64,000 nt of DNA from Candidatus Melainabacteria bacterium (GTDB lineage Bacteria > Cyanobacteriota > Vampirovibrionia > Obscuribacterales > Obscuribacteraceae): contig RXJR01000006.1 of the NCBI GenBank assembly GCA_003963305.1, positions 1 to 64,000 on the forward strand, given 5' to 3'. The position numbers were made by a program, and so were the translations under genes. How positions within the stretch are numbered: position 1 is the stretch's first letter; the number at the start of each line of letters is the position of its first letter. Below are positions 4,464-26,897 of this stretch, piece after piece. The notes beneath the pieces are model-generated. The model saw nothing but the letters and a program-made list of their open reading frames with translations, did no database searches and was not told the DNA's origin.

Positions 4464-4469
4464 TTGTCA
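4385..4469. repeat. 16-base direct repeat pair in hsdM leader
   Basis: GATTCGGCGGTTGTCA (4385-4400) and GATTCGGTGGTTGTCA (4454-4469) differ at one base, start-to-start 69 bases. They lie directly upstream of hsdM and could be sites for a regulator of the restriction-modification operon. Confidence 0.6.
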
Positions 4470-4547
4470 GTGGCTCGATTCGAAAAACTAAGTTCTGCGG
4501 TGCGCGTCAAACCATCAGATGACATTGATATTGTCGGGAAGGTTCGA

Positions 4548-6110: not shown

Positions 6111-6111
6111 C

Positions 6112-7296
6112 ATGAGCCGCATTAACGATCTGATTGGGCAGTATTGCCCGGATGGCGTGGAGTTTAAGCCGCTGGGCGATCTTCTGTCATACGAACAGCC
6201 TGGAAAGTATCTTGTTAAATCGACGGCTTACGACGATTCTTATTCTACTCCAGTACTTACCGCAGGACAGACCTTCATCCTTGGATATACGGATGAAACG
6301 GAAAACTTGTACCCAGCGTCATCGAAAAACCCCACCATCATTTTTGATGACTTCACGACGGCCTTTAAGTGGGTTGACTTCCCGTTCAAGGCTAAATCGT
6401 CAGCAATGAAGATGCTTACACCTAGACCGACGGAAGAGGTCAACTTCCGGTTTGTGTACTATGCAATGCTCTGCATCCAGTTTACCCCACAAGAGCATGC
6501 ACGCCAGTGGATCAGTCAATACTCCACGTTCCGCGTGCCGGTGCCGCCGCTGGATGTCCAACGGGAGATCGTGAAAGTACTCGACACTTTTACGGCGTTG
6601 GAGGCAGCGCTGGAGGCAGAGCTGGACGCACGTCGTCAACAGTACAAGTACTACCGGGACGAGCTCCTCACCTTTGATCATCGCGCGCCGGAAACAAGCA
6701 AGGAATGGACAACCCTGAGTGAAGTTGGCAAGTTTACGCGGGGACGGCGATTCACTAACAATGATTTTGTAGAATCCGGTGTCGGCTGCATCCACTACGG
6801 GGAGATCTACACCCACTACGGTCTGAGCGCGACGGAGACCAAATCCTTTCTGAACCCTGAGCTGGCAGCAACTCTCCGCAGGGCGAAGAAGGGTGAGCTA
6901 GTGATCGCGGGCACCGGAGAAAGCGTCGAGGATATCGGCAAGGCGGTCGCGTGGCTAGGCGACGACGAAGTGGCTGTCCATGATGATTGCTACATTTTCA
7001 GCCATTCTCTCAATCCGAAGTACATGGCCTACTTTTTCCAATCGAGCCATTTCAATGAGCAGAAAGTGAAGCATGCTGCTGGAGCAAAGATGATCCGAGT
7101 GTCCAGCGAGGGGTTGGGAAAAATCCGAATCTACGTTCCGCCAGTTGAAGAACAGGAACGCATTGTCTCCATCCTCGATTCTTTCGATGCGTTGATAAAT
7201 GACCCCACGTCCGGTCTTCCAGCTGAAATTCAGGCGCGGCGGCAACAGTACGAGTATTATCGCATTCAATTGCTCACATTCGAGGAAGCGTCGTGA
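6112..7296 (+). CDS. hsdS: type I restriction-modification specificity subunit
   Basis: 394 residues from ATG 6112 (AAGGGGA upstream; the ATG at 6088 inside hsdM is less likely). Two target-recognition domains: residues about 1-150 and about 200-360. Each is followed by the conserved spacer helix, seen as RRQQYKYYRDELLTF near residue 185 and RRQQYEYYRIQLLTF at the C terminus, with VPPLDVQREIVKVLDTF and VPPVEEQERIVSILDSF before them. The full two-domain layout predicts a bipartite asymmetric recognition site; the sequence recognised cannot be read from here. Overlaps hsdR by four bases. Confidence 0.93.
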   Translation: MSRINDLIGQYCPDGVEFKPLGDLLSYEQPGKYLVKSTAYDDSYSTPVLTAGQTFILGYTDETENLYPASSKNPTIIFDDFTTAFKWVDFPFKAKSSAMKMLTPRPTEEVNFRFVYYAMLCIQFTPQEHARQWISQYSTFRVPVPPLDVQREIVKVLDTFTALEAALEAELDARRQQYKYYRDELLTFDHRAPETSKEWTTLSEVGKFTRGRRFTNNDFVESGVGCIHYGEIYTHYGLSATETKSFLNPELAATLRRAKKGELVIAGTGESVEDIGKAVAWLGDDEVAVHDDCYIFSHSLNPKYMAYFFQSSHFNEQKVKHAAGAKMIRVSSEGLGKIRIYVPPVEEQERIVSILDSFDALINDPTSGLPAEIQARRQQYEYYRIQLLTFEEAS

Positions 7297-10200
7297 GCGA
7301 AAACCAGAAGCCCAGCCGCTATGAGCCGATTGCGCTTTCGAGCGAAAGTACGGTCGTTGCTGAATTCGTGCGCGAGAACAAAGTGCGTGAAGAAAGTTAC
7401 CAGACCGAAGCGGAGCTGGAATCAAACTTCCTTAAGCGCCTACAAATTCAGGCTTATGATTACCTGCGTATCAAGAGCGAGGCTGATCTCATCGCTAACT
7501 TGCGCCGCCAGCTGGAGGCGTTGAACAAGATCGAATTCAGCGAGAGTGAATGGCAACGCTTCTTCAGCGAAAAAATAGCTGGAGCAAACGATGGCATTGT
7601 TGAAAAAACTACACGCATTCAGGAAGACCACATCCAATTACTCAAGCGCGACGATGGCACCACAAAGAACATTTACTTGATTGATAAGCAATCAATTCAT
7701 AACAATCGCCTGCAAGTTATCAACCAATACGAAGTAGAGGGGATGCGCAGTAACCGATACGATGTGACTATCCTGGTAAACGGACTGCCGATGATACATG
7801 TTGAACTCAAGCGTCGGGGCGTGGAAATCCGCGAGGCGTTTAATCAGATCAACCGCTACCAGCGAGACAGCTTTTGGGCTGGCTCCGGGTTGTTTGAGTA
7901 CGTCCAACTCTTCGTAATCAGTAACGGTACTCTCACAAAGTATTACAGCAATACCGTCCGCGAGGGACACCTAGCAGAGCAGCGCAATAAGCGGAACCGA
8001 AAGAAGACCTCAAACAGTTTTTCCTTCACCAGCTGGTGGGCCGATGCAAAGAATAAGCCGATCACGGAGTTGACCGATTTCACGAAGACTTTCTTCGCTA
8101 AGCATACGCTGTTGAATATCCTCACCAAGTACTGTGTGTTCGATGTGGATCGGAAGCTGCTAGTAATGCGTCCATACCAAATTGTTGCAGCCGAATCGAT
8201 CCTGCAGCGCATCGTAACAGCAACGAACCATCGACAACTGGGCACCATATCAGCTGGCGGTTATATCTGGCATACGACGGGATCCGGCAAAACACTGACG
8301 AGCTTCAAGGCGGCGCAGCTGGCACGTGCACTGGCGGAGATCGACAAGGTGCTATTCGTTGTTGATCGAAAGGATCTGGACTACCAGACCATGCGCGAAT
8401 ACGAACGCTTTCAAAAGGGCGCAGCTAATTCCAATACTTCCACTGCGGTGCTTCAACAGCAACTCGAAGATCCAGCGTCGCGCATCATAATCACCACCAT
8501 CCAAAAGCTCAGTCGCTTCGTCGCGAAGAACAAAAAGCACTCGGTTTACAACTCACATGTCGTAGTAATTTTCGACGAATGTCATCGCAGCCAATTCGGC
8601 GACATGCACACAGAAATTACGAAAGTGTTCAACCGGTATCATCTGTTTGGCTTTACTGGTACGCCAATCTTCGCCGCCAACGCCGGGAGCGGTGGCAATC
8701 CACAACGCCGGACCACGGAGCAAGCATTCGGCGACAAGTTGCATACCTACACCATTGTCGATGCCATCAATGACAAGAATGTCCTTCCTTTTCGAATCGA
8801 CTATATCAATACCATAAGAACCGCAGCAAACGTCCGCGACAAAAAGGTGTCGGCCATCGACAAAGAGCGGGCACTACTCGCCAAGAAACGCATCACTCAA
8901 ATAGTGGGATATATCCGTGAACACTTCGACCAGAAAACGAAGCGCGGTGGCAATACTGTCTATCAGCACGGAATAGTGACAAATGTAGAAGAGGTTATCG
9001 CCAGCAGAAATAAGATTGAAGAAATCCGGCGTAGCCAGCGAGTCAGTGGATTCAATTCCATTTTTGCCACGGCATCTATCGACGCCGCGAAACGCTACTA
9101 TGCTGAATTCACTAGCCAACAGCAAGACATCCCAATTGCTCAGAAGCTGAAGATCGGATTGATCTACAGCTTCGCCGTCAATGATGACGATGAGGACGGT
9201 CTTCTCGGCGAGGAAGAGTTCGAGACCGAAGGGCTGGACCAGAGCTCGCGGGATTTTCTGGAGGCTGCTATCAAAGACTATAACGCTTTGTTTGCCACCA
9301 GCTATGATACCTCTGCTGATAAATTCCAGAACTACTACAAAGATTTGTCGCAGCGGTTGAAGAACCGCGAGCTTGACGTCGTTATTGTGGTCAACATGTT
9401 TCTGACGGGCTTCGATGCCACCACATTGAACACACTGTGGGTCGACAAAAATCTGCGCGCGCACGGATTGATACAGGCATACTCCAGGACAAATCGCATC
9501 CTCAACTCAGTTAAGACTTACGGCAACATTGTTTCTTTTCGGAATTTAGAAGAAGAAACGAATGACGCGCTTGCGCTTTTCGGTAATAAGGACGCCAAGG
9601 GCATCGTATTGCTCAAGCCCTACAGGGACTATTATTCGGAATATCAGAAGAAAATCGCCGAATTGGTCAGTAACTTTGAACTAGGGATGCCGATCATCGG
9701 TGAGAATTTGCAGAAACAATTCATCAAACTGTTTGGCTCGATCTTACGACTCAAGAACATTCTCAGATCATTTGACGATTTTGCTGGAAATGAAATACTC
9801 AGTGAACGAGATTTTCAAGACTACCAGAGCGTGTATTTGAATCTGTATGCCGAATTCCGCAGCGCTTCCACGGCGGAGAAAGAATCCATCAACGATGATG
9901 TAGTGTTTGAAATTGAGCTTATTAAGCAGGTCGAAATCAACGTCGATTACATTCTGATGTTGGTGGAGCGATACATTAAGTCGAAAGGTACTGGTGAAGA
10001 CAAAGAGATCCTGGCTACCATCGAACGAGCGATCAGTTCCAGTCCGTCGTTGCGTAACAAGAAGGACCTTATTGAAGAGTTTGTCGATTCTCTCACAACG
10101 GCGGCCAAAGTTGATGCAGACTGGCTTACGTTCATCAAGGTCAAAAAGGCAGAAGAACTAGATTGCATTATCATCGATGAGAGCCTCAACGCTGAGGAGA

Positions 10201-10379
10201 CAAGGTCATTCGTGGAAAATGCTTTCCGCGATGGGGCAATACCGACCAGCGGCACAGCAATTACTAAGATCATGCCGCCTGTCTCAAGATTTTCCAAAGA
10301 CAGCGGTCATTCGACGAAGAAACAAACGGTCTTGGACAAATTGTCGAGGTTCTTTGAACGCTACTTCGGGCTTTCCTAA
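7293..10379 (+). CDS. hsdR: type I restriction endonuclease subunit R
   Basis: 1028 residues, full length for the family. GTG start overlapping the hsdS stop (GTGA), GAGGA upstream. N-terminal nuclease with RYDVTILVNGLPMIHVELKR (Asp then Glu-x-Lys of the PD-(D/E)XK fold, about residues 150-172). SF2 motor: Walker A HTTGSGKT (about 330), DECHRSQFG (about 428), GFTGTP (about 452), and QAYSRTNR motif VI (about 728). C-terminal helical region binds the methylase. All catalytic motifs look intact, so active translocation and cleavage of unmethylated DNA is expected. It ends 52 bases before the end of the convergent ATPase gene. Confidence 0.95.
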   Translation: MSENQKPSRYEPIALSSESTVVAEFVRENKVREESYQTEAELESNFLKRLQIQAYDYLRIKSEADLIANLRRQLEALNKIEFSESEWQRFFSEKIAGANDGIVEKTTRIQEDHIQLLKRDDGTTKNIYLIDKQSIHNNRLQVINQYEVEGMRSNRYDVTILVNGLPMIHVELKRRGVEIREAFNQINRYQRDSFWAGSGLFEYVQLFVISNGTLTKYYSNTVREGHLAEQRNKRNRKKTSNSFSFTSWWADAKNKPITELTDFTKTFFAKHTLLNILTKYCVFDVDRKLLVMRPYQIVAAESILQRIVTATNHRQLGTISAGGYIWHTTGSGKTLTSFKAAQLARALAEIDKVLFVVDRKDLDYQTMREYERFQKGAANSNTSTAVLQQQLEDPASRIIITTIQKLSRFVAKNKKHSVYNSHVVVIFDECHRSQFGDMHTEITKVFNRYHLFGFTGTPIFAANAGSGGNPQRRTTEQAFGDKLHTYTIVDAINDKNVLPFRIDYINTIRTAANVRDKKVSAIDKERALLAKKRITQIVGYIREHFDQKTKRGGNTVYQHGIVTNVEEVIASRNKIEEIRRSQRVSGFNSIFATASIDAAKRYYAEFTSQQQDIPIAQKLKIGLIYSFAVNDDDEDGLLGEEEFETEGLDQSSRDFLEAAIKDYNALFATSYDTSADKFQNYYKDLSQRLKNRELDVVIVVNMFLTGFDATTLNTLWVDKNLRAHGLIQAYSRTNRILNSVKTYGNIVSFRNLEEETNDALALFGNKDAKGIVLLKPYRDYYSEYQKKIAELVSNFELGMPIIGENLQKQFIKLFGSILRLKNILRSFDDFAGNEILSERDFQDYQSVYLNLYAEFRSASTAEKESINDDVVFEIELIKQVEINVDYILMLVERYIKSKGTGEDKEILATIERAISSSPSLRNKKDLIEEFVDSLTTAAKVDADWLTFIKVKKAEELDCIIIDESLNAEETRSFVENAFRDGAIPTSGTAITKIMPPVSRFSKDSGHSTKKQTVLDKLSRFFERYFGLS

Positions 10380-10431: not shown

Positions 10432-13400
10432 TCACAGTTTGAGGAGCGAAATGGTTTCAGGTCGCGGCGAGCCTTCGGTAAAAAACATCGCATTGTGCTT
10501 TGGCATAGTTTTGAGGCGATCAGTGATGCGACTGACCATGTCGGTCGGCGCGACATTCTTCGCTGCAATTCGTGCGTCTGTATCCGTTAGGCGAAGGAGC
10601 AGATAGTTGGACACGGCAGCGAACAGAGAGCTGCTAAAGTCTTTGACTTCCTGTGATGCAACTAAAAGCGAAATGCCATATTTTCTGCATTCTTTGCCCA
10701 TACGTCCCAAGAGGCTCAGTTTTGATGCTTTGTGTGCTTCGTCGAAGATAACCGCATCGCAAATTCGATTGCGTACTCCCCTTATGAACATTTCTTGATA
10801 GATGTTATACAGAACGAATGAGGCAAATGCTTTTTGGAGGGACTCGTTGCTAGTTTGGTGTAACCGAACTATCTTGAGACCGTCCTGGGTTAGGGCGCTT
10901 CGCATCTCACCAGAGCTTGCGAAGAATCCGTAATCATTCAGCTCAGCCAACCGCGCCATCAGCCCGGGATTAACGCGTTCTTGCGAATTCAGAATGTCGA
11001 AAAACCGCTGGAACGCGGGTATTGCTCTTTGTTCTTGATTCGTATGCTCGGACCCCCACCCAAGTTCCAAATAGCTTTGCTTAATCGATTCGCGAATGCG
11101 CTCGGTCTGTAGGTCTCCAAGCTCTGAGAAAATTGCAGAGAAGATATCCCGGAGCATTCCTGCATTATCCAAGTATGCAAGCGGGTTCTCAGTCACGATC
11201 CGCAATGGATTGAATCCTAACCCACGATAATCAATGAACGAAATGTTGTCACCGCCCACGATATCAGTGATCCGTTGATCAAAGTCATCATGATAGGAAA
11301 AGACAACCGGATTTATCCCGGCTTGCAATAACTGCTTAGTGATCGTAATCAGCGTCGTAGTTTTTCCCATACCGGGCAGTCCGACGATCATCAGATGTGG
11401 ATTGTTGGAAATAGACGGACGCCAGATGACCTCTTCTCCGCTCGTTAGACTTGTCCCGAGAATTATCTCGCCCACGGGAATTTTGGACTCAATTTGCCCA
11501 CTCGGCGGTTCGGCAACTGCGACAGAACCTGGACTGGGTGGGTTTTCCTGCTGACTATCTATGGGTTCGACGGGATCAGACTGCAGCTCATTAAGCTGTT
11601 CTGGATTTGGGGTGACTGCTGGGAGTCGTGGAGAATGTACGGGTTCATCACGCAGATCGTGAGTGAGATCTTTGGAAGGTTGTGGGCGCGGCTTGCCATG
11701 GTCCGGCATTTGCGCCGGCCCGAAAAGATGTATGTCGACTTGTTCGCTGAACGGTATCATTTCAGGTGCGTCACCGGGAAATTCTGGGCAGAAGATGAAT
11801 CCTTTGTCCGGCAATAGATTGACTTGATACTTGTTAGCTTGAGAGATGAATTTGTCTATTTCCTTTAACAGTCGTAAAAACACATCCTCTTTCAGATAGT
11901 GTCGTCGCGCTTTTTCAGCATAGAATCGCAGGATCTTTCCGACCATACTCCGCCGTATGCTCGCTTCTGATGGTGTCAGTGAGTCGGAAAGGAAGAACGT
12001 TTCCCAATGCGTTCTAGTGTTTGTCAGTTGAGAGTGAATCGAGTTCAACAAATCTTCTGTTCGTGCCATTCGCAAATGACGTCTATATTTGACTTCCACG
12101 AAAGAGAGGCAAAGCGATCCCCGCTTAGTGGCGGTCACATAGACGAGATCCGCTCTAACTTGTGAGGCACCGCCGTCTTTTTTCGCCGGGCACAATTCCG
12201 GGACATCATCGAGGGGAACGAAAAATCCTTCATTTAAATCGCACCAACCGGAATGTTTTTCACGCAGGCAATTCGAATACAGAAGTGAAAGTGCGATTAG
12301 TTCTCCAGGCTGCTGAGAAGAGTTTGCTAACCGCATCGCCAACCTTCCACTGAGCCCTTTCAATTGCATAAGGAGGAACTCGCAATTCCGTGGACTGCAG
12401 CTCAGATTCATCTCCACTAAGGGTTTGGCTAACAGCGTCGTCACCTCGCTCAGATGAGTGGTAGAGGTGACGAGTTGCATAGTGCCGAGGGAAGGTCTCT
12501 CGGGAACGCAGTCTATTACATACGCTTCATAAGTATCCTTTGCTTCACACGGAGAATCAAAGTACTCAAGTCCACCGTGCCGATCTATGGTTATTACCCA
12601 ATCGCTCGTTTCATGGACTTTCGACAGTGTGTTCTCTTCAGATTGACTCAAACTGGTTTTGAGCACTGCATTTCCTAACACCGCAGGTCCCGATTCTTTT
12701 GAGATAGAACGAGAGGTGGCAGAGAGCAAGAAGTTCTGAATGCGGAGTAAGCGATCTGTAAATACTTTCCCAGCCGGATGTTTTTCACCGTCAACGCTCG
12801 TTGCATTGCCCGTCATCCAGACTGGGTGTGGACGCATTTTAAAATTGCGATAGATCGGTGCAACCAATCCATACACTTCTAATGGTCGAGTTTCAGGAGG
12901 TCCTGCTGCGACATCAGGGACTACCGAGGTATCGAATGTGTCAAAGGAAACTGATAAATGCGACGGGGGCGGAGAATCGGCTTCGAACTGCTTTGCCCAA
13001 TTTAGACGGGGCAATTGTTGACCTTCGAATTCATAGGACTCCAGCATCCATCTGTCTACTCGTGCAATTTGGCCAATACCAGCGCGGCGTTTTTCACTAC
13101 TCTCCGTGAGAAAGCTTCCGGCCGTCCCATGTTCTCTGGCAGAACCGATTAGCCGCAAAGTAAAACCAACGTCTTGTGTGATGGGTGGGGCGTCTGGTTC
13201 ATCAGCAATGTCGGTGCCCAAACTGCATCCAAGCGATCTTGCAATTGTGCAGCCATCGCCCGCTTTAAATGCGTTAACGTGAATATTATGATAGCTCTGG
13301 TGCAAATTCGCATAGCGTGCGATTTCGCGGCCGAGATAGCGGCTTACAGAAGAACTGATCGAAGCAGGCACAGGATTCGCTTCGTCAGACAGTGCTTTCG

Positions 13401-15402
13401 ATAAAAGTGCTATTGATGCCCGCGGTTCTGTATCAGACTGTAGAACCATTGCAACGCAGTGAAATCCCAACATATCGCCGAAGACAAAGTTTTGATCTGG
13501 TTTCGGTCCCGGAATAATCAGCGGATAGTGTGCGCCGTTTAGTGAAGCGACAAGTCCTTCAATGCGTTTTACCGATACATTCTCTTCATAGGCGAGCTGC
13601 TGCACGAGCGCGTCGTACGAATAATGCCAGGCGACTCTAACAGGGTGCCAAGGCAGAATTATCAGTCCTATGGTTCTCCCGGAAAGGCTTTGCACTTCGA
13701 CAGTGCCTGCAAGACAAAAATCTGGCGATCCTTGTTCAAATGTCGATGACCATGCATTTATATATTCATCAATAACTTTGCTTTGCTGATAAATAGCGCC
13801 ATAAGTGCTTCTGCACTTGGCAATGTAGTCAGCGAATTGGCGACACGCATCCGTGAGACGCGACGTGGATGGGTCGTCCATTTGAATGTATTCAATCGCC
13901 GAGTGTCTTGTGCCGTCGGGTCGGAGCCTCACAATCCAGCGGGATGGACGACCACGGTTGTCATTCCACTCGGTTTCAAGAAGCTTGACAAGGGTTGGGC
14001 GGTGAACTCGATAACTGCGTTGATTTGCCTTGAAAACGATGTAGCCACGACGATCTTCGTTGTAGCACTTGTCCACATCTGGTGAGTTGAGAAGAGACTG
14101 AAGAACATCTCGTTCAAGTGCTATTGCTCCATCAATAAGACAACGAAGATGCTGTCCACTTGCGGAGCGCACGTCTTTCGATTCTCTACCGATGGAAAGA
14201 ATAAACTCTTCTGTTTCAATTTCGCGGACGTTTTCGATACCGACCGCCTTGATGATTATCTTCGCCTCGAACTTCGAGCCCTCTTCTATGTCGGCGAAGT
14301 CCTCTTCGGTAAATTTACTTTTCTGCGGGTCCTTTCCAGAGTGCGATACAACTTGCTCCGCTAAGACCTCGTCTCCTGCGACCACTGTTACATTGTACTG
14401 AACCGCATCGCGCTTGAGCCCTTCGGGTATGGCTTTCCATCGTACTTCCAGCTTAGACCGTTCTTTGGCACTGCTCGGAGTCGGATTAATGGCAATTTTG
14501 AGCATGCCACCGTCAGCCTCACTCAGACTAAGTCCTGACCATACCTGCGCTTTTGCGTCATTGCGCCCCCGCCACTTCAATAGCTCCAAAGAAACGAGGT
14601 CGCTGGAACCGAAGAAACCTGGGTTAATGCTATTCAGCCACAGCTCTTCTTTATTTCTCAAGTCTGTCAGGGCCTGAGTCCATCGTGTCCCGGTCGAACT
14701 ACGAACAAATGATTCCAGCTCCTTGATCTGCGCATCAGAAGCGTCGCGCAATAGCAACGAAGCGACTCTTGAAGAGGGTGGTTGAGCGGCGCCCGTGGCT
14801 AAGAGCAATCGCTCCACTAACCTAACTGATTTTTCTATCTCGGCTTCGTCCGGCGGCTCGTCCGAAACCTTGATGGGCCACAATCCTAGGTCGATAAGAT
14901 GGTTTCCAAAGTCTTTCAAATCCGCAGCACACTTTGCGAGGAAAGCAAATTCCGCCATCGGCGAAATGGTGTTCTGCCGGCCAATCTTTCTTGTGCGATC
15001 AACTGCTTTTTTGCAGATCGGCTGCCATCGCTGGTCGATACGAAGCACCGCCAACCTAATTGCTTCTTCGAAAAAGGCCTGTTCAGTAACTTCGAAACAG
15101 GCGCTGTAGATGCCGTCCATTCCGCTTTTTGCGCGGCTCGGATCTACGAGTAATAGATGGCTGCCTTGTTTCTCTTCGCGTAACTCAACGGCTTTGTCTG
15201 CGCTGATCAATCTGTTAGAGCTCTTACTTACGTCTATGACGCCGTTTGCGGTCCATCCGGTGACATCAAAAGTTTGCGACTGGCAAAGATCTTCAATAAC
15301 TCCACCATCCAAGAAAGTCACAAATGCCACGTTACCATCAGCCGGTTGTGGCAGCAGTTTTGCGAAAGCTTGAGATAGAAGTTGGCATTCAAAATCAGTC
15401 AT
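10432..15402 (-). CDS. DptH-like protein: PD-(D/E)XK motif plus HerA-type ATPase
   Basis: 1656 residues from ATG 15402 (GAGGAC seven bases upstream; overlaps the previous gene by eight bases). The long N-terminal part has no motif I can name. Around residue 1100 comes ADLVYV, then FVEVKYRRH, an Asp and Glu-x-Lys pair spaced as in PD-(D/E)XK nucleases. A Pro-rich linker follows, then a HerA/FtsK-like ATPase: GEIILGTSLTSGEEV, Walker A VGLPGMGKTT (about 1345) and Walker B DAVIFDEAHK (about 1552), ending in a conserved C-terminal tail. Size and architecture match DptH of phosphorothioation-dependent restriction and the ATP-binding MAD8 of MADS as I recall them. Probably the translocating effector of the complex; the family assignment rests on architecture, not on a search. 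Confidence 0.7.
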   Translation of the reverse strand: MTDFECQLLSQAFAKLLPQPADGNVAFVTFLDGGVIEDLCQSQTFDVTGWTANGVIDVSKSSNRLISADKAVELREEKQGSHLLLVDPSRAKSGMDGIYSACFEVTEQAFFEEAIRLAVLRIDQRWQPICKKAVDRTRKIGRQNTISPMAEFAFLAKCAADLKDFGNHLIDLGLWPIKVSDEPPDEAEIEKSVRLVERLLLATGAAQPPSSRVASLLLRDASDAQIKELESFVRSSTGTRWTQALTDLRNKEELWLNSINPGFFGSSDLVSLELLKWRGRNDAKAQVWSGLSLSEADGGMLKIAINPTPSSAKERSKLEVRWKAIPEGLKRDAVQYNVTVVAGDEVLAEQVVSHSGKDPQKSKFTEEDFADIEEGSKFEAKIIIKAVGIENVREIETEEFILSIGRESKDVRSASGQHLRCLIDGAIALERDVLQSLLNSPDVDKCYNEDRRGYIVFKANQRSYRVHRPTLVKLLETEWNDNRGRPSRWIVRLRPDGTRHSAIEYIQMDDPSTSRLTDACRQFADYIAKCRSTYGAIYQQSKVIDEYINAWSSTFEQGSPDFCLAGTVEVQSLSGRTIGLIILPWHPVRVAWHYSYDALVQQLAYEENVSVKRIEGLVASLNGAHYPLIIPGPKPDQNFVFGDMLGFHCVAMVLQSDTEPRASIALLSKALSDEANPVPASISSSVSRYLGREIARYANLHQSYHNIHVNAFKAGDGCTIARSLGCSLGTDIADEPDAPPITQDVGFTLRLIGSAREHGTAGSFLTESSEKRRAGIGQIARVDRWMLESYEFEGQQLPRLNWAKQFEADSPPPSHLSVSFDTFDTSVVPDVAAGPPETRPLEVYGLVAPIYRNFKMRPHPVWMTGNATSVDGEKHPAGKVFTDRLLRIQNFLLSATSRSISKESGPAVLGNAVLKTSLSQSEENTLSKVHETSDWVITIDRHGGLEYFDSPCEAKDTYEAYVIDCVPERPSLGTMQLVTSTTHLSEVTTLLAKPLVEMNLSCSPRNCEFLLMQLKGLSGRLAMRLANSSQQPGELIALSLLYSNCLREKHSGWCDLNEGFFVPLDDVPELCPAKKDGGASQVRADLVYVTATKRGSLCLSFVEVKYRRHLRMARTEDLLNSIHSQLTNTRTHWETFFLSDSLTPSEASIRRSMVGKILRFYAEKARRHYLKEDVFLRLLKEIDKFISQANKYQVNLLPDKGFIFCPEFPGDAPEMIPFSEQVDIHLFGPAQMPDHGKPRPQPSKDLTHDLRDEPVHSPRLPAVTPNPEQLNELQSDPVEPIDSQQENPPSPGSVAVAEPPSGQIESKIPVGEIILGTSLTSGEEVIWRPSISNNPHLMIVGLPGMGKTTTLITITKQLLQAGINPVVFSYHDDFDQRITDIVGGDNISFIDYRGLGFNPLRIVTENPLAYLDNAGMLRDIFSAIFSELGDLQTERIRESIKQSYLELGWGSEHTNQEQRAIPAFQRFFDILNSQERVNPGLMARLAELNDYGFFASSGEMRSALTQDGLKIVRLHQTSNESLQKAFASFVLYNIYQEMFIRGVRNRICDAVIFDEAHKASKLSLLGRMGKECRKYGISLLVASQEVKDFSSSLFAAVSNYLLLRLTDTDARIAAKNVAPTDMVSRITDRLKTMPKHNAMFFTEGSPRPETISLLKL

Positions 15403-17194
15403 TGCTATTGTCCTCAGCCACATACCGCGCCGTCAGTCGTTTCATTGTTTCCGCATCGTTGACACCAACCAACAATCCGAGGTCGCGTAAGCGACGTTCC
15501 AGGAACTTCTTATTCGCTGACAACAATTCGTTTGCGATTGGCATTCCTTCTGGAGAGCGATCCACGAATAAGCCATACCGTTCTCGTAGCAAGACAAGGA
15601 AATTCTGCAAGCTAAGAACTTGTTCGCCTTTTCCCTTTTTGTCTTTTCGCAGATGTCGATGTACAAGAAAGTCAATCATCGTATTGGTCAATACGATTGA
15701 CCGGGCCTCTGTAAGCCGCTTCTTACCCATCGTGGATACCATTACCTTTCGCTTACTTGCGAGGCCGCTTGGCGAATCAACCATAAGGCAAGATTCGAGA
15801 GCTTTCTGAAAGTGCGATCGATTGAGCTTGTCACCCATCAGAGCAACCAATGCTTCGCCAAGTCTTGTTGCTGGCTCGACCTCGGGATTTCGGAGAAGCT
15901 CCGTGACAGCCAATTGCTCTTCGTCCGCTTCAAGTGCATCCGCTAATTCGCGGCACTTTCGTTTTAAATCCTTCGCTAAAAATTGGGAATTTTCATGTCT
16001 GCCATCTCTAATGGCGCCTAGGAGGTTGAGCAATCCTTCGCTGTGAGGTGATTGCTTCAGAGACTTCACCTCGGCACGCATGTCCTCGTCATAAGACACT
16101 GCTTGATCGAGAATTCTCATGGTCATCAACGTTATTGGTAATCGATCAAGTCTTCTGAAGCAGTCTTCAAAGGACTCTTCGGCCAACCGACGTAAGTCAT
16201 TATTCGCGCCAGAAGAACAATCAACGAATAGCTGCCATGGACGATCTTCTTTGGGCAACGAGAGTTCGTTTGTCTTTTCCCAGCCGAGCGCCAGCTGCGC
16301 ACTTGAAAGAAAGATGTTGGAAAGCCCGAGCGAAAGGCAAGCTTCGAGCATTGGTATCAATGCATGCCTCGGAATAACGGTTCCATATGCCTGTAGAAAA
16401 ACGCTCAGGTCTCGCGAGAATCGTTGTGCAGCGTTTTTTGATAGTGGCTTAGAGTTTGGTATTAAACCACTTTCGCTCGGTCCCCTCAATTTCTGGGGTG
16501 CCTGTGTACAAGATTGTGCCATTCTCACAGTAAGTAGCTGATCGATTCCTATTTCTGCGCTTTCTGAATATCGCTCGGCAGAAACGTTGGCTTCTCGACC
16601 TTCAGAATACACGCCAGTTCCAAGGAGTTTCAGTAATTCGTTATCCTCCATACTCCTGCCGGCCGAGAATCTCGATTTAACACGCCCCGACTCGATATGC
16701 GAACCGTCCGGTTGATCAACGAGCAGCGCAACAATCATTTCGGGAACAGAACGCAAGTGTCCGATCTGTTTGGGAAGATCTATCCAGCTCGCGAAATAAT
16801 GGGTAGGAAAAGCTCGGATAACTTGATTCGTTCGGCCCGTTGAATGGTCCGTATTTTCCAAGCAATAAGTCAGTAGCAGATCGCCAAGTATTGCTAGAGT
16901 TGTTTCATCCTTGAAATTTGCAAACCACTGATCCTTTTCGACAAGCTTTTTTGCGATTTGATCAATCGACAGTATCGGTTCAGTTTCGCTTGTAAATGCA
17001 GAAGCGAATTTGCCTGCGCCTCTACGATGTCCCCAGCGAAACATGTACAGCACCGCAGGCAGCACCGCTTCCATCGAAAAGTCTTGCGGCGTAATCGGAA
17101 TGACTGCGGAGTAATTGGACGACCAAAGCTCTCTGACGCGTTGAGGCGTTAGCACGTTCTCGACTATAGTTTTTGTGGGATTTGTTTGCCGCAT
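15395..17194 (-). CDS. DptG/MAD7-position protein of unknown fold
   Basis: 599 residues, soluble, mostly helical by composition. Middle gene of the kinase-ATPase operon: 21 bases after the kinase stop, and eight bases overlapping the ATPase start, so translation is probably coupled. AGAGGA precedes the ATG. No nucleotide-binding or nuclease motif seen. The position between a P-loop NTPase gene and a HerA-like giant is that of DptG in dptFGH and of MAD7 in MADS. The sequence itself I do not recognise, so the link is by gene order. Likely a structural subunit bridging the two ATPases. Confidence 0.6.
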   Translation of the reverse strand: MRQTNPTKTIVENVLTPQRVRELWSSNYSAVIPITPQDFSMEAVLPAVLYMFRWGHRRGAGKFASAFTSETEPILSIDQIAKKLVEKDQWFANFKDETTLAILGDLLLTYCLENTDHSTGRTNQVIRAFPTHYFASWIDLPKQIGHLRSVPEMIVALLVDQPDGSHIESGRVKSRFSAGRSMEDNELLKLLGTGVYSEGREANVSAERYSESAEIGIDQLLTVRMAQSCTQAPQKLRGPSESGLIPNSKPLSKNAAQRFSRDLSVFLQAYGTVIPRHALIPMLEACLSLGLSNIFLSSAQLALGWEKTNELSLPKEDRPWQLFVDCSSGANNDLRRLAEESFEDCFRRLDRLPITLMTMRILDQAVSYDEDMRAEVKSLKQSPHSEGLLNLLGAIRDGRHENSQFLAKDLKRKCRELADALEADEEQLAVTELLRNPEVEPATRLGEALVALMGDKLNRSHFQKALESCLMVDSPSGLASKRKVMVSTMGKKRLTEARSIVLTNTMIDFLVHRHLRKDKKGKGEQVLSLQNFLVLLRERYGLFVDRSPEGMPIANELLSANKKFLERRLRDLGLLVGVNDAETMKRLTARYVAEDNSND

Positions 17195-17215: not shown

Positions 17216-20200
17216 TCAATGGATTTCCAGACAGCGAACTTCATTCTGAAGACTCGCGGTAAGTTTGTATGTCTTGTTCTCATTTGCTGGGTTCCATGCC
17301 ATCAACTCGGTCTGGTCCTCCTGAGCTAACCGACCGATGAATATCGACAAGTTAGCGAAGGTATCGTCGAGCGCAGCATTTACGAACTGATGCCCCTCCT
17401 TTAGTTCCATCAATATGGAGAACAGGTCGGCGCCAAGGTAGAGATCTTCATTGAAGCCATTCTTGTACTGGTAAGTGAGTACCAGATGTGTGTGGAGGGC
17501 TTCCATATCGCTGTCCTGATCACTCAGAGCGCAGCGAAGCGAAAAGCGCGATATTGGTTTGTTGACCCAGAGTACGGTTTCGGTCGGGGTGCGCGGAGTT
17601 ATTCGTAGCGGTACTTGATCCGGTTGGTTGAGAACTACGTCTGGCAGGTCAACGAGTCTCGACAATCCTACGCAGAGGTCGCGGCAGATTTGAGATTTTT
17701 CTTCGGCCTTCAGTAATGGAAACCTTCTAAACAGCTGGAAGTGGGCCGATCTGCGAATGCCGAAGAGGTTCGCACCATTACTTGCAAACTTCGCGACTTC
17801 CTCGTCATTCCATTCAAAGAAGGCTCGTCTGCGCGCGGATGATAGTTCCAGGTCGGGGTAACGGGGTGAAGACGAACCTTCGTTAGTTTGTTCGAGTCCT
17901 AGCAGGAATCTGTCGAGATTCGGATTAGATTCAAGTGCCGGATCCAGCGTGCAGAGCTCCATCAAGACCTCGCCTTGCCGTCTGGGGGATTTTGCCGAAA
18001 ACGCACGATCCCAGAATGGGAGATATTCCTCCATCCTTTCCGCGTGTATGTCTTTGCAGTTGTGAAGTCCGAATATGATGTAGCTTAGCGCTCCCCGGAG
18101 GTCCCTAGCGGTTATGTGTACTTCGGCTCTTTGATGTACGGCCTGCAGTGCCGTATACAATCTCTGCCTCATTAACAGAGCATTTTCTTTGGTATATGAG
18201 TTTGTACCGCGTACGCGCGAGACGGTGTTGAAAATAGGACAGGACGGTTGCGCGGTACAGCTGGCGCACGGTGACCAAATTTCATCAGCTTTCTCAGAAC
18301 CTAGCAACGCATCAACAAGTTGATCTACGAATTCGGTCGAGATCATGTTTTCACCGCGATTGACTCCACCTACTAGAGACCGATCATTGAAATCGATGAA
18401 TCGCAACCAACTCGGCAAGTCTTCATAGTTGCCTTCAATCGCTGACCAAAGTGCGGAAATCAGAACTGACTCTTTGCCGGGATTGCGTCCGGCAAAGTCC
18501 TCTATCCAAGCCAGAAGAGGGCCGCTGTTGATGGCCACTAAATGAACCGCTATTGGGGAAACGGCACCATTGTGGAATTGGCCGAATAACTCATCTAATA
18601 GTTCGGTAGCGCTTCTTCCTTGATAGGAAGCCGAACCATCCAGATTGATTCTCACTCGGAGACCGTTAGATATTGTTTGATCGACAATGCGCGTGCTCGA
18701 TTTTTCGACCGGGACACCTAATGAATTTGCCAAGTGTTGTAGAAATGCGGTTTTACCATCGCCTGCGTTACCAGTTAGGATCACAAGTTTCACGTCACGT
18801 TTCATTATGCCTTGACAAAGATTTCGCTCCAAGTCAGTCTCAACGTAGGTGTGTTTAGCAAAGTCACTATCGAGTCCGCGAGTCTCTGCGTTGCCGAATC
18901 TCGATTTTGGGTAAGCTTTTAAAACCTCGGTCAACCAAAGTACTTCGTTTGGTGTTCGATTTTCATCCGCCGCAGAACCCGTCTCGAACTCACCCTCATC
19001 GACTCTTTCAAGTCGGTTGTTAAGGAACCGAATCGCTTCGGAAGCTGAACGCAGGCGCGCGGATTCATCGGGAGTAGTACAGAGTTTCAGAAACTCGATA
19101 ACATTCAAAAACTGGTCACAATCAACTCCGTCCCAGTTCAGACCAGCGTTTTTTCGTAGCTCGCCATTAAAGTCAAACGGAAGCTTGTCAAACAGCACAT
19201 GAAAAAACGACGCTCCCAGAGAAAAGATGTCATCGCCGGGAGCTAGTTCATGTTCAGTTTGCATTGCCGACGAACAGTACGGCAAGGTACCTTTGCTGAT
19301 TGATTTCAAGCCAATTCTGGTTGCAAGATCATAGTCGGTTAGGAAAATATCCTGTCCGACTACAATGAGATTCTTTGGCGTAACATCTCCGTGTACGTAT
19401 CCCGCCTGATGTAACTGAGAAAGTCCCTGGCAAACGCGTACTAGCCACTTCATGACTAATTCTTCGACGGAGCTTTCGCCATATTTATCTGCGTACGCTG
19501 AAATCTCTCCCGTCAGCGATGCGAGCGGAACTCCATCGATCCACCTCATTAACGCTACAAAAGCATCTGGTCTCCATCGCTCTGCGATTTCATGGATCAT
19601 TGAAAGCGAATTGTGTATTGTATGCGCACGAATCTTTTTGTATGCGCGTATCGCGCTGTTACCTTCGGATTCAGTGTGAATGGCTTTTGCCACGTACGTC
19701 CCATATTCTTCATCACTAGTCTTATCGATTTCGACAACCTTGAAAGTGGTGCCCCAGCCGCCCGAACCTAGTTTTGAAACAACACGGTAACGAGATTGGT
19801 TGAAATCAAGCTCCGTGCCTTCATCCCAATATTGCGCCGATGGTAATGCTTCTGGTTTCGTAATGGACGAGGTGGTAGGTTGTTTGATTTGTTCGCCAAT
19901 TTGAGATGCAATCATTGCGGCTGACGGACGATCTTCCGAGTTCGCATTTAGACCAGCTTCAAGTAGTTTTTGAACTTTACCAAGTGTTGCTCCGGTACCT
20001 TCAGCAAGCAGATCTTTGAGACTCGCGCACATCGAGTACACGTCTGAAGCTTTCGACGCTGCTGCAATCCCACCACTTATCACTTCTGGGGCCGTACAAC
20101 TGTCGTGCTGTTGCGGAGCCGGCTGGACCGGAAGAGAAGTCATTTCCGCGATTCTGCTGAGGCGCAGACCGGTAAAAAGCGGGTTTCCATTTGTTCTCAC

Positions 20201-21196
20201 GTGGATAGTGCTTTGATTCAAGTTGCGATGGATAATGGCTGGGTTGTCGGGATCAGCTGGTTCGTGAAGATCCGAAAGCGCAGAAAAACATCGTGCCACG
20301 AACGCAATTTTGTCGTCCGTTTTCCAATTACGATCAACCTTTCTCATTAGGACTGTTGGTGCGCCCGGATCTACGAGTGAGAAAAAATAGAGTTCGCCCG
20401 GATACTCCGGTGCTTCTTGAAACGACTCCATAAGCTTTGGCAGCCACGGCGACTTTTGCAATCGCTGAATCGTCTCGAATTCTCGTCTTGCAATTAGATC
20501 GGGATTATTCGAATCTGACGCAGAGTAATCGTAGATGTGAAGGACAACTTTGTCTTGCGTTCTTGCGTTCTGACCACGATAAACGCGATGAACCCTGTCG
20601 TCGCGTGGTGAGGATAGTTCTAAATTGCTATAGTTTCCGAAATGTCGAATATCTCCAGTCAGCGTGACTCGTGCAGAAGGCATGATTGACGATGCAAGTT
20701 CATCTGTTTGTTTCGCTGTCAACAATTGTTTTGCGCTAACATCTAACAGTTCTTTCCAATCACGCAATGCATAGAATCCGGCTCCCTTTATGGGTGACAA
20801 TGTACTGGCATAGGAAATATTTTCACCCTTCGTCAGTAAAAACTTTCCTTGAATGAAGTTGGCCGACGCCCATAATCTCTTCACCTTCCCTGCGATCCGC
20901 CGCGCTTTCTTGTTCAGAATTTCGGACTGGTCGTCGACTGTAAGAGCGTTGGCTTTGTTCTCAACGTACTTGTTGTCCCAGTGTTTGGTTTCTAAAACGT
21001 GGACACCAGATGGACCCACCACCAAAAGATCAATCTCGTCCGGACGGCTGGATGGTGTCGTCCCAAATTCGATGTTCGAAAAGAGAACCCACAGACCATC
21101 CCCGCTCAACGATTCCAATTTTTCTTTCAAAAACTCTGTTGCCCGGCGCTCGCTATCATTGGCATAAGGACCGCACTGTATGAGTTTTACTTTCAT
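17216..21196 (-). CDS. NERD-pseudokinase-kinase-NTPase defence protein
   Basis: 1326 residues from ATG 21196 (AGGTG upstream; the frame is open further but without a ribosome site). Order: NERD nuclease-like domain with DEIDLLVVG and HVLETKHW (to about residue 120); a degenerate kinase (about 195-430) where HRD is HRN and DFG is lost; an active-looking Ser/Thr kinase (about 470-735) with GSGGWGTTF, YVAKAI, VHGDVTPKN and LTDYDLA; then a P-loop NTPase with Walker A GNAGDGKTAF near 811 and a CASCTAQPSC zinc-type cluster near 980. NERD plus kinase recalls PglW of BREX and MAD6 of MADS; the NTPase half recalls DptF. First gene of the three-gene operon. Likely the sensor and switch of the system. 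Confidence 0.75.
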   Translation of the reverse strand: MKVKLIQCGPYANDSERRATEFLKEKLESLSGDGLWVLFSNIEFGTTPSSRPDEIDLLVVGPSGVHVLETKHWDNKYVENKANALTVDDQSEILNKKARRIAGKVKRLWASANFIQGKFLLTKGENISYASTLSPIKGAGFYALRDWKELLDVSAKQLLTAKQTDELASSIMPSARVTLTGDIRHFGNYSNLELSSPRDDRVHRVYRGQNARTQDKVVLHIYDYSASDSNNPDLIARREFETIQRLQKSPWLPKLMESFQEAPEYPGELYFFSLVDPGAPTVLMRKVDRNWKTDDKIAFVARCFSALSDLHEPADPDNPAIIHRNLNQSTIHVRTNGNPLFTGLRLSRIAEMTSLPVQPAPQQHDSCTAPEVISGGIAAASKASDVYSMCASLKDLLAEGTGATLGKVQKLLEAGLNANSEDRPSAAMIASQIGEQIKQPTTSSITKPEALPSAQYWDEGTELDFNQSRYRVVSKLGSGGWGTTFKVVEIDKTSDEEYGTYVAKAIHTESEGNSAIRAYKKIRAHTIHNSLSMIHEIAERWRPDAFVALMRWIDGVPLASLTGEISAYADKYGESSVEELVMKWLVRVCQGLSQLHQAGYVHGDVTPKNLIVVGQDIFLTDYDLATRIGLKSISKGTLPYCSSAMQTEHELAPGDDIFSLGASFFHVLFDKLPFDFNGELRKNAGLNWDGVDCDQFLNVIEFLKLCTTPDESARLRSASEAIRFLNNRLERVDEGEFETGSAADENRTPNEVLWLTEVLKAYPKSRFGNAETRGLDSDFAKHTYVETDLERNLCQGIMKRDVKLVILTGNAGDGKTAFLQHLANSLGVPVEKSSTRIVDQTISNGLRVRINLDGSASYQGRSATELLDELFGQFHNGAVSPIAVHLVAINSGPLLAWIEDFAGRNPGKESVLISALWSAIEGNYEDLPSWLRFIDFNDRSLVGGVNRGENMISTEFVDQLVDALLGSEKADEIWSPCASCTAQPSCPIFNTVSRVRGTNSYTKENALLMRQRLYTALQAVHQRAEVHITARDLRGALSYIIFGLHNCKDIHAERMEEYLPFWDRAFSAKSPRRQGEVLMELCTLDPALESNPNLDRFLLGLEQTNEGSSSPRYPDLELSSARRRAFFEWNDEEVAKFASNGANLFGIRRSAHFQLFRRFPLLKAEEKSQICRDLCVGLSRLVDLPDVVLNQPDQVPLRITPRTPTETVLWVNKPISRFSLRCALSDQDSDMEALHTHLVLTYQYKNGFNEDLYLGADLFSILMELKEGHQFVNAALDDTFANLSIFIGRLAQEDQTELMAWNPANENKTYKLTASLQNEVRCLEIH

Positions 21197-21277
21197 TGAA
21201 CACCTGACACTTGTGGCGTTTGAGGAAGAAATGGTTCGCTCGACACTTGGAATCAATCTAAGCATCTGCCGCTGCAA

Positions 21278-21442: not shown

Positions 21443-21849
21443 CTATTTGCGCGACTTCGAGCTACGTTTTGACTTAGCGTTAGAGGATGACTTGCTCCGA
21501 GCTTTGTTCGGGCCATCATCAGCCGCATTTATAGTCGGCTCTTGCGCCTGACGTTTCATTGCCTCAAGCCAAGCTTGTTGGGCCTTCTGCCTTGCTTCTA
21601 GTTGAACTTGCTGGCTTGTCCGAATGTATGCCTTCAGCGTAGTTCGAGTGTCTGTGTGGTTGAGCGCGGCTCTGACAACCGAGACGTCTGCCCCAGTATT
21701 GGCCATTGATGAGGCCAAACTTCTGCGCAAATCGTGTATCCACAGATCGCTCATTTCAAGCTTCTCGCGCAACGTTTCCCATGCGTTGCCTGGATCTACC
21801 ATGTGCCCGGCCGCTCCTTTCCCGGGAAAGACACGTGATTCTTAACTTT
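21443..21849 (-). pseudogene. tyrosine recombinase remnant (C-terminal part)
   Basis: The only ATG is at 21802, but conserved coding continues upstream to a stop at about 21850: ESRVFPGKGAAGHMVDPGNA is the segment that precedes the catalytic C terminus in phage-type integrases. After it come IHDLRRSLASSMANTGAD (box II Arg), LNHTDTRTTLKAY (His and likely Tyr nucleophile), then a Lys/Ser-rich tail. The core-binding domain and the box I Arg are absent, and the next upstream sequence is not integrase in any frame. So this is a 5'-deleted, inactive gene, broken at about 21850. It marks the right edge of the island, near the start of the kinase operon. Confidence 0.8.
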
Positions 21850-22147: not shown

Positions 22148-23093
22148 ATGACATCAAAATTAGAGCGCCTAATCAAAATGGAAGACGAAATTCTGCGAGA
22201 TGTTCGAAGTCCAGCCAAGAACAGTCTACGACGATATTCGAGAGTTGAAAGAGCGCTGCGGGCTGGACATCGAATTCGATAGATTCAAAAACGGCTACTA
22301 CAATAAAAATCCGAAAAAGCAGCTACCGACATTCGAGCTTTCTGACGGCGAGCTGTTTGCCATCACACTCGGGAATGAAATGCTGTCAGAGTACACAGGT
22401 ACATCGTTCGAGCCAATCTTGAGTAGCGCGCTCGAGAAGATCTACGAGCGCATGCCAGACCGCTCTGAAGTTGACTTGGGCGAACTACGGAGCATGGTGA
22501 ATTTCAACGCCGGCTCTGTGATCAAAATCAAGCGAAGAACGTTTTTCGATTTCAACAGCGCCTGCGAAAAGAATTTAGTGATGACGCTGGAATATTTCAC
22601 AGCCAGCCGAGGTGAAGTAACAAAGCGCGAGATTGAGCCGTACAGGCTACTAGAAAGCAGAGGTACCTGGTACGTGGTGGCGCATTGCCGCATGCGCAAT
22701 GCACTAAGACTCTTCGCACTGCATAGGATGCGCGATTACTTTATTAAGGACGAAAAATTTACACCGATAGATGACGGGAAAATTCAAGAGTGGATTGATT
22801 CTGCGTTTTTCCTGGAGCACACGGAAAAAGAAAGCAACATCAAGATCAAGTTTGACCCTGACGCCAGTCGATACATTCGAGAGCGGAAGTGGCATCCATC
22901 GCAAGAATTGATTGAGCATCAAGACGGCAGCTGCACTCTATCTTTTACGGCACCCAGCCTTGACGAAATCAAAAGGTGGGTCATGTCTTATGGCGCTCAA
23001 GCTGAAGTCCTGGAGCCGGAAGAACTCAAGTTGCTCATGCGCGTGGAATTCGAGGCGGCGCTGCAAATCTACAAGAAAGACGGAAGCTACTAG
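22148..23093 (+). pseudogene. WYL-domain transcriptional regulator, frame-broken N terminus
   Basis: ATG at 22148 begins MTSKLERLIKMEDEI, the usual start of HTH-WYL regulators, but after about 17 codons homology continues in another frame as MFEVQPRTVYDDIRELKERC from 22200. The intervening residues of the first HTH helices are missing, so a deletion that is not a multiple of three has fused the pieces out of frame. The downstream frame (297 codons) holds the recognition helix end, the linker helices and a complete WYL region (RRTFFDFNSACEKN, EPYRLLESRGTWYVVAHC, FALHRMRDY) and a WCX-like C terminus. No ribosome site precedes 22200. WYL regulators often sit beside defence loci and bind nucleotides or DNA. 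Could still yield an HTH-less fragment. Confidence 0.7.
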
Positions 23094-25893: not shown

Positions 25894-26340
25894 ATGGTTC
25901 AATCAACCTCACTCAGAGAACCAATTTACGCTGAAAGAGAGCAGGCGGCTGCTGTACAGGCGTTTGGCAAAGCGCTGCATACTATTAAACAGGCACGCCT
26001 GGTAGGTCCAGAGGGGCAAGAAATACCGCTTCCTGAGCCCCTTTACCGTGTTCTTGAGCAGGTTGTTCCATTACTTGCAGCCGACATGGCAGTGTCAATT
26101 GTTCCAGTTGGACATTTGCTTACTACGCAAGAAGCAGCGGATTTGCTCAATGTGTCGAGACCGTATCTCATCAAACTTCTACAAGAAGGAGACATCAGTT
26201 TCGAGCGAGTGGGAACGCATCGACGCATTCGATTCGAAGATCTCATGGAGTATAAACACAAGCGCGACAAGAAGCGTAGAAGCGCGTTAAAGAAACTCAC
26301 GAAGATGGCACAGGAAGCTAGCCTTTACGATGAGGAGTAA
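25894..26340 (+). CDS. antitoxin with excisionase-type HTH
   Basis: 148 residues. N-terminal about 75 residues are helical; residues 76-125 are a MerR/Xis-like helix-turn-helix (LLTTQEAADLLNVSRPYLIK, then FERVGTHRRIRFEDLMEYK). A short acidic C-terminal tail (ASLYDEE) may cover the toxin. This layout is standard for antitoxins paired with long PIN toxins. AGGTG before the ATG. The toxin gene follows after five bases. Should bind the operator at 25838-25871. Confidence 0.85.
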   Translation: MVQSTSLREPIYAEREQAAAVQAFGKALHTIKQARLVGPEGQEIPLPEPLYRVLEQVVPLLAADMAVSIVPVGHLLTTQEAADLLNVSRPYLIKLLQEGDISFERVGTHRRIRFEDLMEYKHKRDKKRRSALKKLTKMAQEASLYDEE

Positions 26341-26345
26341 ATCGC

Positions 26346-26897
26346 TTGGCAGTTTTTCCAGCTGTTCTTGACGCGTGTGTTCTTTTCAATCGTCCCGTAA
26401 CAGATACCCTTCTGCGGGCGGTCGAATACGGGCTCTACCGTGTGCATTGGTCACAGCTTATTCTTGACGAGACTACGCGAAACCTCATAAAACGAAGAAA
26501 AATGAATGACGCTCAAGCAGCACATTTACAAGAAGAGATGGCTAAAGCCTTTCCAGAAGCAATGGTGTCCGTACCGGACAAGCTAATCGAGCAGATGACC
26601 AATGATGAAGGCGATCGCCATGTCACTGCTGCCGCTGTAGTCGCTCAGGCGCAAGTGATCGTGACTTTCAACATAGACCACTTCAAACCGAAAGATCTTG
26701 AACCATGGAATCTCGAAGCGCAGCACCCAGACGTATTTCTATCGCATCTGTTCGACCTGGATTCTTTTCTCTTCCTTCAAATAATCGAAGAACAAGCTGA
26801 AGACTTGACTGACGTGAGCGTGCCAGAGCTTTTAATGAAGCTTGAACCACATGTACCAAATTTTGTTTTACAGGTTCGCTCGCTCGCATCGTCGTAG
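26346..26897 (+). CDS. PIN-domain toxin (ribonuclease)
   Basis: 183 residues starting at TTG 26346, GAGGAG seven bases upstream. PIN fold with conserved acidic residues: VLDACVLFN (first Asp), LDETTRNLI (Glu), DEGDRHVTAAAV (Asp pair), VTFNIDHF (last Asp). A C-terminal extension of about 45 residues goes beyond the minimal VapC size (130-140 residues), as in the longer PIN toxins with Xis-type antitoxins. Metal-dependent RNA cleavage is the known family activity; its target is unknown. Confidence 0.88.
   Translation: MAVFPAVLDACVLFNRPVTDTLLRAVEYGLYRVHWSQLILDETTRNLIKRRKMNDAQAAHLQEEMAKAFPEAMVSVPDKLIEQMTNDEGDRHVTAAAVVAQAQVIVTFNIDHFKPKDLEPWNLEAQHPDVFLSHLFDLDSFLFLQIIEEQAEDLTDVSVPELLMKLEPHVPNFVLQVRSLASS

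Follow-up and report, generated by a model that had tools for sequence, protein, structure and literature searches.

The question raised by gene F in the window, i.e., the whole analysed stretch of 64,000 nucleotides from a Candidatus Melainabacteria genome, is what a single protein joining a NERD nuclease domain, two kinase-like domains and a P-loop NTPase could do. The open frame of gene F covers 17216-21277 on the minus strand, giving 1353 aa from a TTG start, and position 21196, at which the preliminary description of this DNA had begun the protein, is an ATG at residue 28, where the homologues start too. The following features were recognized in gene F:

17216-21196, minus strand: gene F, a NERD-pseudokinase-kinase-DndF fusion of 1326 aa from the ATG at 21196 (family matches)
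20894-21154, minus strand: NERD nuclease domain, residues 42-128, with D83, E96 and K98 (Pfam PF08378, 3e-10)
19907-20638, minus strand: predicted pseudokinase domain, about residues 214-457 (AlphaFold2, pLDDT 90.9; Foldseek matches to PknB and other kinases)
18995-19813, minus strand: protein kinase domain, about residues 489-761, with K531, HGD and DYD intact (Pfam PF00069, 6e-22; AlphaFold2; conservation)
17888-18952, minus strand: DndF-type P-loop NTPase with a helical lid, residues 776-1130 (SspF, 6e-15; hhalign to DptF, 5.6e-20)
18749-18772, minus strand: Walker A of the DndF-type core, GNAGDGKT, residues 836-843
18239-18268, minus strand: Cys cluster of the DndF-type core, CASCTAQPSC, residues 1004-1013
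17219-17887, minus strand: segment C-terminal of the DndF-type core, assigned by position only and by analogy with PMC10853773

The four domains proposed for one chain were recovered by Pfam, PADLOC and NCBIfam matches, with AlphaFold2 for the first kinase-like region. All motifs quoted from the product were located as claimed, far beyond chance, namely ETKHW of NERD (residues 96-100), HRN (350-352) with TGL at the expected DFG position in the first kinase-like region, HGD (629-631) and DYD (648-650) in the second, GNAGDGKT and the Cys cluster. The Pfam Pkinase match covered residues 497-706 (6e-22), and residues 809-1128 were matched by the PADLOC SspF/DndF and NCBIfam DptF models. In addition, hhalign aligned the family profile of the F core with an annotated DptF (E 5.6e-20), bearing out the DptF-like nature suggested for the NTPase. 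Searching the PDB by sequence with the F core gave no relative.

Judging from the adjoining genes, gene F is predicted to be the first gene of a three-gene F-G-H operon of phage defence, the other members of which are as follows:

15395-17194, minus strand: gene G, MAD7/SspG/DndG-like, 599 aa, a predicted DNA-binding subunit (NF047733 and SspG matches)
10432-15423, minus strand: gene H, DndH-like, 1663 aa (PADLOC DndH, 5e-31; HerA matches; hhalign to DptH)
12088-12150, minus strand: REase motif of the gene H product, D1092, E1110 and K1112 (D-ExK), kept in 51-54 of 57 homologues
10624-11406, minus strand: HerA/FtsK-type ATPase of the gene H product, with GLPGMGKT, DEAH, Arg1580 and Gln1591 (key residues in 56-57 of 57 homologues; HerA matches)

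Genes H and G overlap by 29 bases. The gene G product matched NCBIfam NF047733 (MAD7) over residues 27-591 (2.4e-41) and PADLOC SspG weakly (6e-5), and hhalign detected no significant match between its family profile and the DptG of one annotated DptFGH; DndG itself is a DNA-binding subunit with three wHTHs. The family profile of H aligned with the annotated DptH over 876 columns (E 1.2e-25), and the motif set of gene H (REase, HerA, Arg and Gln) agrees with the published description of DndH. These assignments bear on the proposal that phosphorylation and ATP-driven DNA action are united in one chain, which did not hold: at Walker B, the DptF-like P-loop of F carries Asn (AIN, in 81/81 homologues), as also published for DndF, and HerA sits in the separate protein encoded at 10432-15423. 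The DNA-translocating ATPase of the system is thus probably the HerA domain of the gene H product and not the P-loop of F.

Residue counts for F were taken over 81 full-length homologues. The NERD residues D83 and K98 were kept in all 78 homologues with a NERD domain and E96 in 76 of these, the other two having Asp, while the three cysteines of the Cys cluster and the NxDG motif, corresponding to the N-D motif that follows strand 2 in DndF, were, like AIN, invariant (81/81). The P-loop was likewise present in 81/81 homologues, a figure that is biased, since one of the two patterns used for the search was GNAGDGKT itself. In the second kinase domain, K531, D631 and D648 were kept in 77-78 of the 81 homologues, and all three are present in the gene F product; judged by its VAIK Lys, HRD Asp and DFG Asp, this domain is a competent, active-type protein kinase. 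The catalytic residues of the second kinase are lost in three relatives (L067, L070 and L074), and another (L080) has HGG there, with the NERD triad intact in all four. Phosphorylation is therefore not essential everywhere, given the loss of these residues in L067, L070 and L074.

In the first kinase-like region of the gene F product, the VAIK Lys is replaced by His247, HRD by HRN and DFG by TGL. Of the 81 homologues, 70 carry His in place of the VAIK Lys, and only three have the HRD Asp. The preliminary description had staked its reading on this region having a kinase fold, and such a fold was predicted: AlphaFold2, with an input alignment built without rows from plasmid records, modelled the NERD domain plus the first kinase-like region with a mean pLDDT of 90.9, and Foldseek matched this model to protein kinases, e.g., PknB (6b2p, target TM 0.73, rmsd 3.3). 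The residues and the predicted fold thus uphold a degenerate kinase ahead of an active one. The JAK-type regulation drawn from this arrangement stood as to domain order and not beyond it. For the AlphaFold2 model of all three domains, NERD, pseudokinase and kinase (pLDDT 89.0, pTM 0.83), Foldseek ranked JAK1 (7t6f) first among PDB entries; the alignment ran over 813 columns, but at a TM of 0.29 and an rmsd of 27. The other 49 matches listed each spanned about one kinase domain. Consequently, the kinase pair of F shares its domain order with JAK1, while the modelled relative arrangement of the two domains differs.

A cis-inhibition of the JAK type, in which the pseudokinase would hold the adjacent kinase inactive until infection and the kinase would be the output, has in its favour that full-length homologues retain the order of pseudokinase and kinase and that JAK1, the top Foldseek match across both domains, was matched at the sequence level, too, in a single stretch over both. 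However, both kinase matches follow from homology, the predicted arrangement is not superposable on JAK1, and relatives with a dead second kinase retain the pseudokinase as well as NERD. As the second kinase is dead and NERD intact in L067, L070 and L074, the pseudokinase there is not solely a restraint on an active kinase, and JAK-type inhibition is considered unlikely. The pair resembles JAK/TYK2 in that a pseudokinase lies N-terminal to an active kinase, whereas F has no FERM or SH2 domain, is not superposable and occurs in an independent context, so the likeness is an analogy only.

The novelty initially seen in the four-domain chain was not sustained. NERD with tandem inactive and active kinases has been published as an N-terminal fusion of DndF (PMC10853773), and the NERD-pseudokinase-kinase trio also occurs in PglW (PMC12839542); what is gained is that the locus is now placed in a testable frame. 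It has also been reported that DndFGH occurs as a standalone system, that phosphorothioation genes are often not linked to it, and that the N-terminal domains of DndF differ between lineages (PMC10853773). The window locus resembles the phosphorothioation-dependent restriction system DndFGH/DptFGH in the four-domain order of the published F fusions, the Asn at Walker B, the optional Zn/Cys insert, the G and H partners, the REase and HerA in H, and its standalone occurrence, whereas its sequence is only weakly related to the one annotated DptFGH compared. Moreover, it differs from classical Dnd systems, in which phosphorothioation genes are linked, in that a search of the window's genome gave no DndC match. 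Since no modification gene recurred either in the flanks of the FGH operons (Pfam scans of 85 downstream or inside genes and 99 upstream genes), the locus appears to be a kinase-fused DndFGH without linked modification genes, as looked for by DndC genome-wide and among flank genes.

Comparison with the methylation-associated defense system MADS revealed a closer relation. The MAD6 proteins of two relatives (L010 and L012) have the same layout of NERD, two kinases and DndF core, and MAD7 and MAD8 are homologous to G and H over most of their length. Above the NCBIfam cut-offs were MAD2, MAD5, MAD6, MAD7 and MAD8 in L012, and MAD6 and MAD3 among the two proteins scanned in L010. The window proteins all scored below the cut-offs (bits versus cut-off: MAD6, 181.6/460; MAD7, 142.4/410; MAD8, 19.1/175), with the sub-threshold MAD6 match of the gene F product lying in its N-terminal half (2.5e-53). 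The MAD6 proteins of L010 and L012 are about 1390 aa long, and the NCBIfam MAD6 model spans only residues 1 to about 615; in hhalign with seven MADS-type loci, the remaining half of MAD6 matched DptF (E 4e-23) and MAD8 matched DptH (E 1e-15). The named MAD6 proteins (about 1390 aa) therefore seem to carry a DndF core outside the region of the NCBIfam model, so that annotation obscures how MADS and DndFGH are related. A literature search for MADS together with DndF found no paper, and a search on MADS gave papers whose titles and abstracts make no link to DndF. Profiles of the window's clade matched single MADS proteins at 2.5e-32 to 6e-47 for F, 5e-14 to 2e-16 for G and 8e-22 to 2.5e-32 for H, versus 5e-17 for F, none for G and 6e-18 for H with the single sequences of one DptFGH. 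The FGH of the window thus appears nearer to MAD6-7-8 than to the one canonical DptFGH compared. In the F tree, the MADS set formed a separate clade (support 1.0, midpoint rooting). Furthermore, the window differs from MADS in having an operon of F-G-H only, without MAD2, MAD3 and MAD5, and a pseudokinase more degenerate than that of MAD6. The gene order departs from that of the other MADS-type loci in L095 (10013-21026), where HsdM- and HsdS-like genes separate the G-like gene from the H-like one.

PglW of type 2 BREX (Pgl) shares NERD, pseudokinase and kinase in its N-terminal half, and its PADLOC model matched the gene F product (2e-11). The matches to PglW ended at about residue 753, with a score of 30.7 versus a cut-off of 990. 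In contrast to F, PglW has a C-terminal helical domain, wHTHs and an inactive STAND (PMC12839542) and no DndF core, and neither PglX nor PglZ adjoins gene F. DndFGH, MADS 6-7-8 and PglW hence share parts of one toolkit in the loci examined. As a tentative and rather doubtful proposal, MADS might be a kinase-fused DndFGH with an added type I-like methylation arm (or the window's clade might have lost that arm), the window's clade its modification-free sister, the F kinase a phospho-switch that turns a machine with two nucleases on or off, and G an exchangeable specificity subunit.

With a probability somewhat above even, F is a subunit of a three-subunit complex of the DndFGH/MAD6-7-8 superfamily acting against phages or plasmids, most likely under phospho-control by its kinase pair. 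The complex is suggested by the family matches of all three genes, the hhalign results with DptF, DptH and MADS, the F-G-H order in many phyla and the retained NERD and REase residues. In such a complex, G and H would find foreign DNA, and H would move along it by HerA and then cut it with its REase. F would be the hub, its P-loop core binding nucleotide and holding the complex together, its N-terminal half supplying a second nuclease (NERD) and the kinase pair. The active kinase may phosphorylate F, G or H, so that the nucleases are kept off or are flipped on when contact with an invader relieves the kinase, and the pseudokinase could serve as a scaffold between NERD and kinase. The analysis shows the identity of the domains, the predicted fold of the pseudokinase, and the conservation of active sites and operon, whereas we infer that the window operon acts in defence, what each subunit does and in which direction phosphorylation works. 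Among relatives, DndFGH has a 2:2:1 stoichiometry of DndF, DndG and DndH and is able to bind DNA, translocate along it and nick it (PMC10470545), and the phage kinase JSS1_004 phosphorylates and thereby neutralises DndFGH (PMC12345140). In addition, three MADS loci (L012, 21787-22452; L009, 22358-23020; L096, 19378-20070) have a PP2C phosphatase gene directly after MAD8, their H gene. Phospho-control by the F kinase is favoured on account of the DNA nicking by DndFGH, its inactivation by a phage kinase and this position of PP2C; against it, no such PP2C gene recurs in the clade of the window, its three occurrences being at MADS loci, and three relatives have lost the catalytic residues of the kinase.

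The main rival to phospho-control is the published interpretation of the DndF fusions (PMC10853773), in which NERD and the kinase would not be regulators but suicide effectors acting on host DNA and host proteins if an invader disables the GH nuclease. It accords with the NERD triad being kept even where the kinase is dead and with the variation of DndF N-terminal domains between lineages (PMC10853773), but the trio is kept as a unit in the window's clade and in MADS, unlike freely swapped effectors, and this backup role is regarded as possible, though somewhat unlikely. If, as in the favoured reading, the kinase controls the nucleases, the locus would be a phospho-regulated restriction system that is testable by mutants of one gene.

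Around the operon, the following features were detected:

4464-10379, plus strand: complete type I RM operon HsdM-HsdS-HsdR, tail to tail with FGH, 52 bases apart
21443-21802, minus strand: remnant of a tyrosine integrase, C-terminal part, immediately upstream of F (family match)
22200-23093, plus strand: WYL/WCX-domain regulator upstream of F (domain match)
25894-26897, plus strand: adjacent HTH_17 and PIN-domain genes, resembling a toxin-antitoxin pair

Regulators of the WYL/WCX type are often found near defence genes, and the integrase fragment is consistent with a mobile island. The proximity of HsdMSR, together with the methyltransferase and specificity genes that share the F-G-H operon in MADS loci, raises the question of whether FGH is the restriction arm of this neighbour, with self-marking by methylation as by MAD2/MAD5 in MADS. 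However, HsdMSR runs convergently to FGH and already includes an HsdR, and around the operons of the window's clade methyltransferase genes are only sporadic (99 upstream genes gave 4 N6_Mtase and 4 N6_N4_Mtase matches), making this arrangement very improbable. Being convergent and not recurrent in relatives, HsdMSR was rejected as a default part of the FGH system.

One scan of genome contigs yielded 441 relatives, and the 80 best loci among them were retained; these belonged to Proteobacteria, Planctomycetes, Chlorobi, Acidobacteria, Chloroflexi, Spirochaetes, Verrucomicrobia and others. The preliminary description had called for a search for the same domain order in other genomes, and the F-G-H operon was indeed found in about 80 further genomes of many phyla. 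Of the 74 loci in which F and G were both present, 71 had G following F within 60 bases, and the overlap was 4 bases at the median. No recurrent partner of the operon was found by Pfam in the 85 and 99 flank genes, the flanks being heterogeneous with only sporadic methyltransferase, helicase and integrase genes. The nearest F homologue was in a Melainabacteria MAG (L013). Within the window's own phylum, 4 of 386 genomes matched the F core, including the window's genome, and the three others were all weak; viral contigs scanned for close relatives of the gene F product gave nothing. The spread over many phyla, the heterogeneous flanks and the few occurrences in its own phylum suggest that the FGH operon is a sporadic, horizontally moving module. 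Tandem copies of the G-like gene were identified in four loci, with four copies in L052 (14071-21800), three in L059 (13863-19367) and two each in L041 (14038-17744) and L088 (14004-17590). A specificity region of G was sought from these copies, and their differences were scattered along the whole protein. The copies are 43-94% identical, and the set of each locus forms its own clade, indicating that the duplication of G arose repeatedly.
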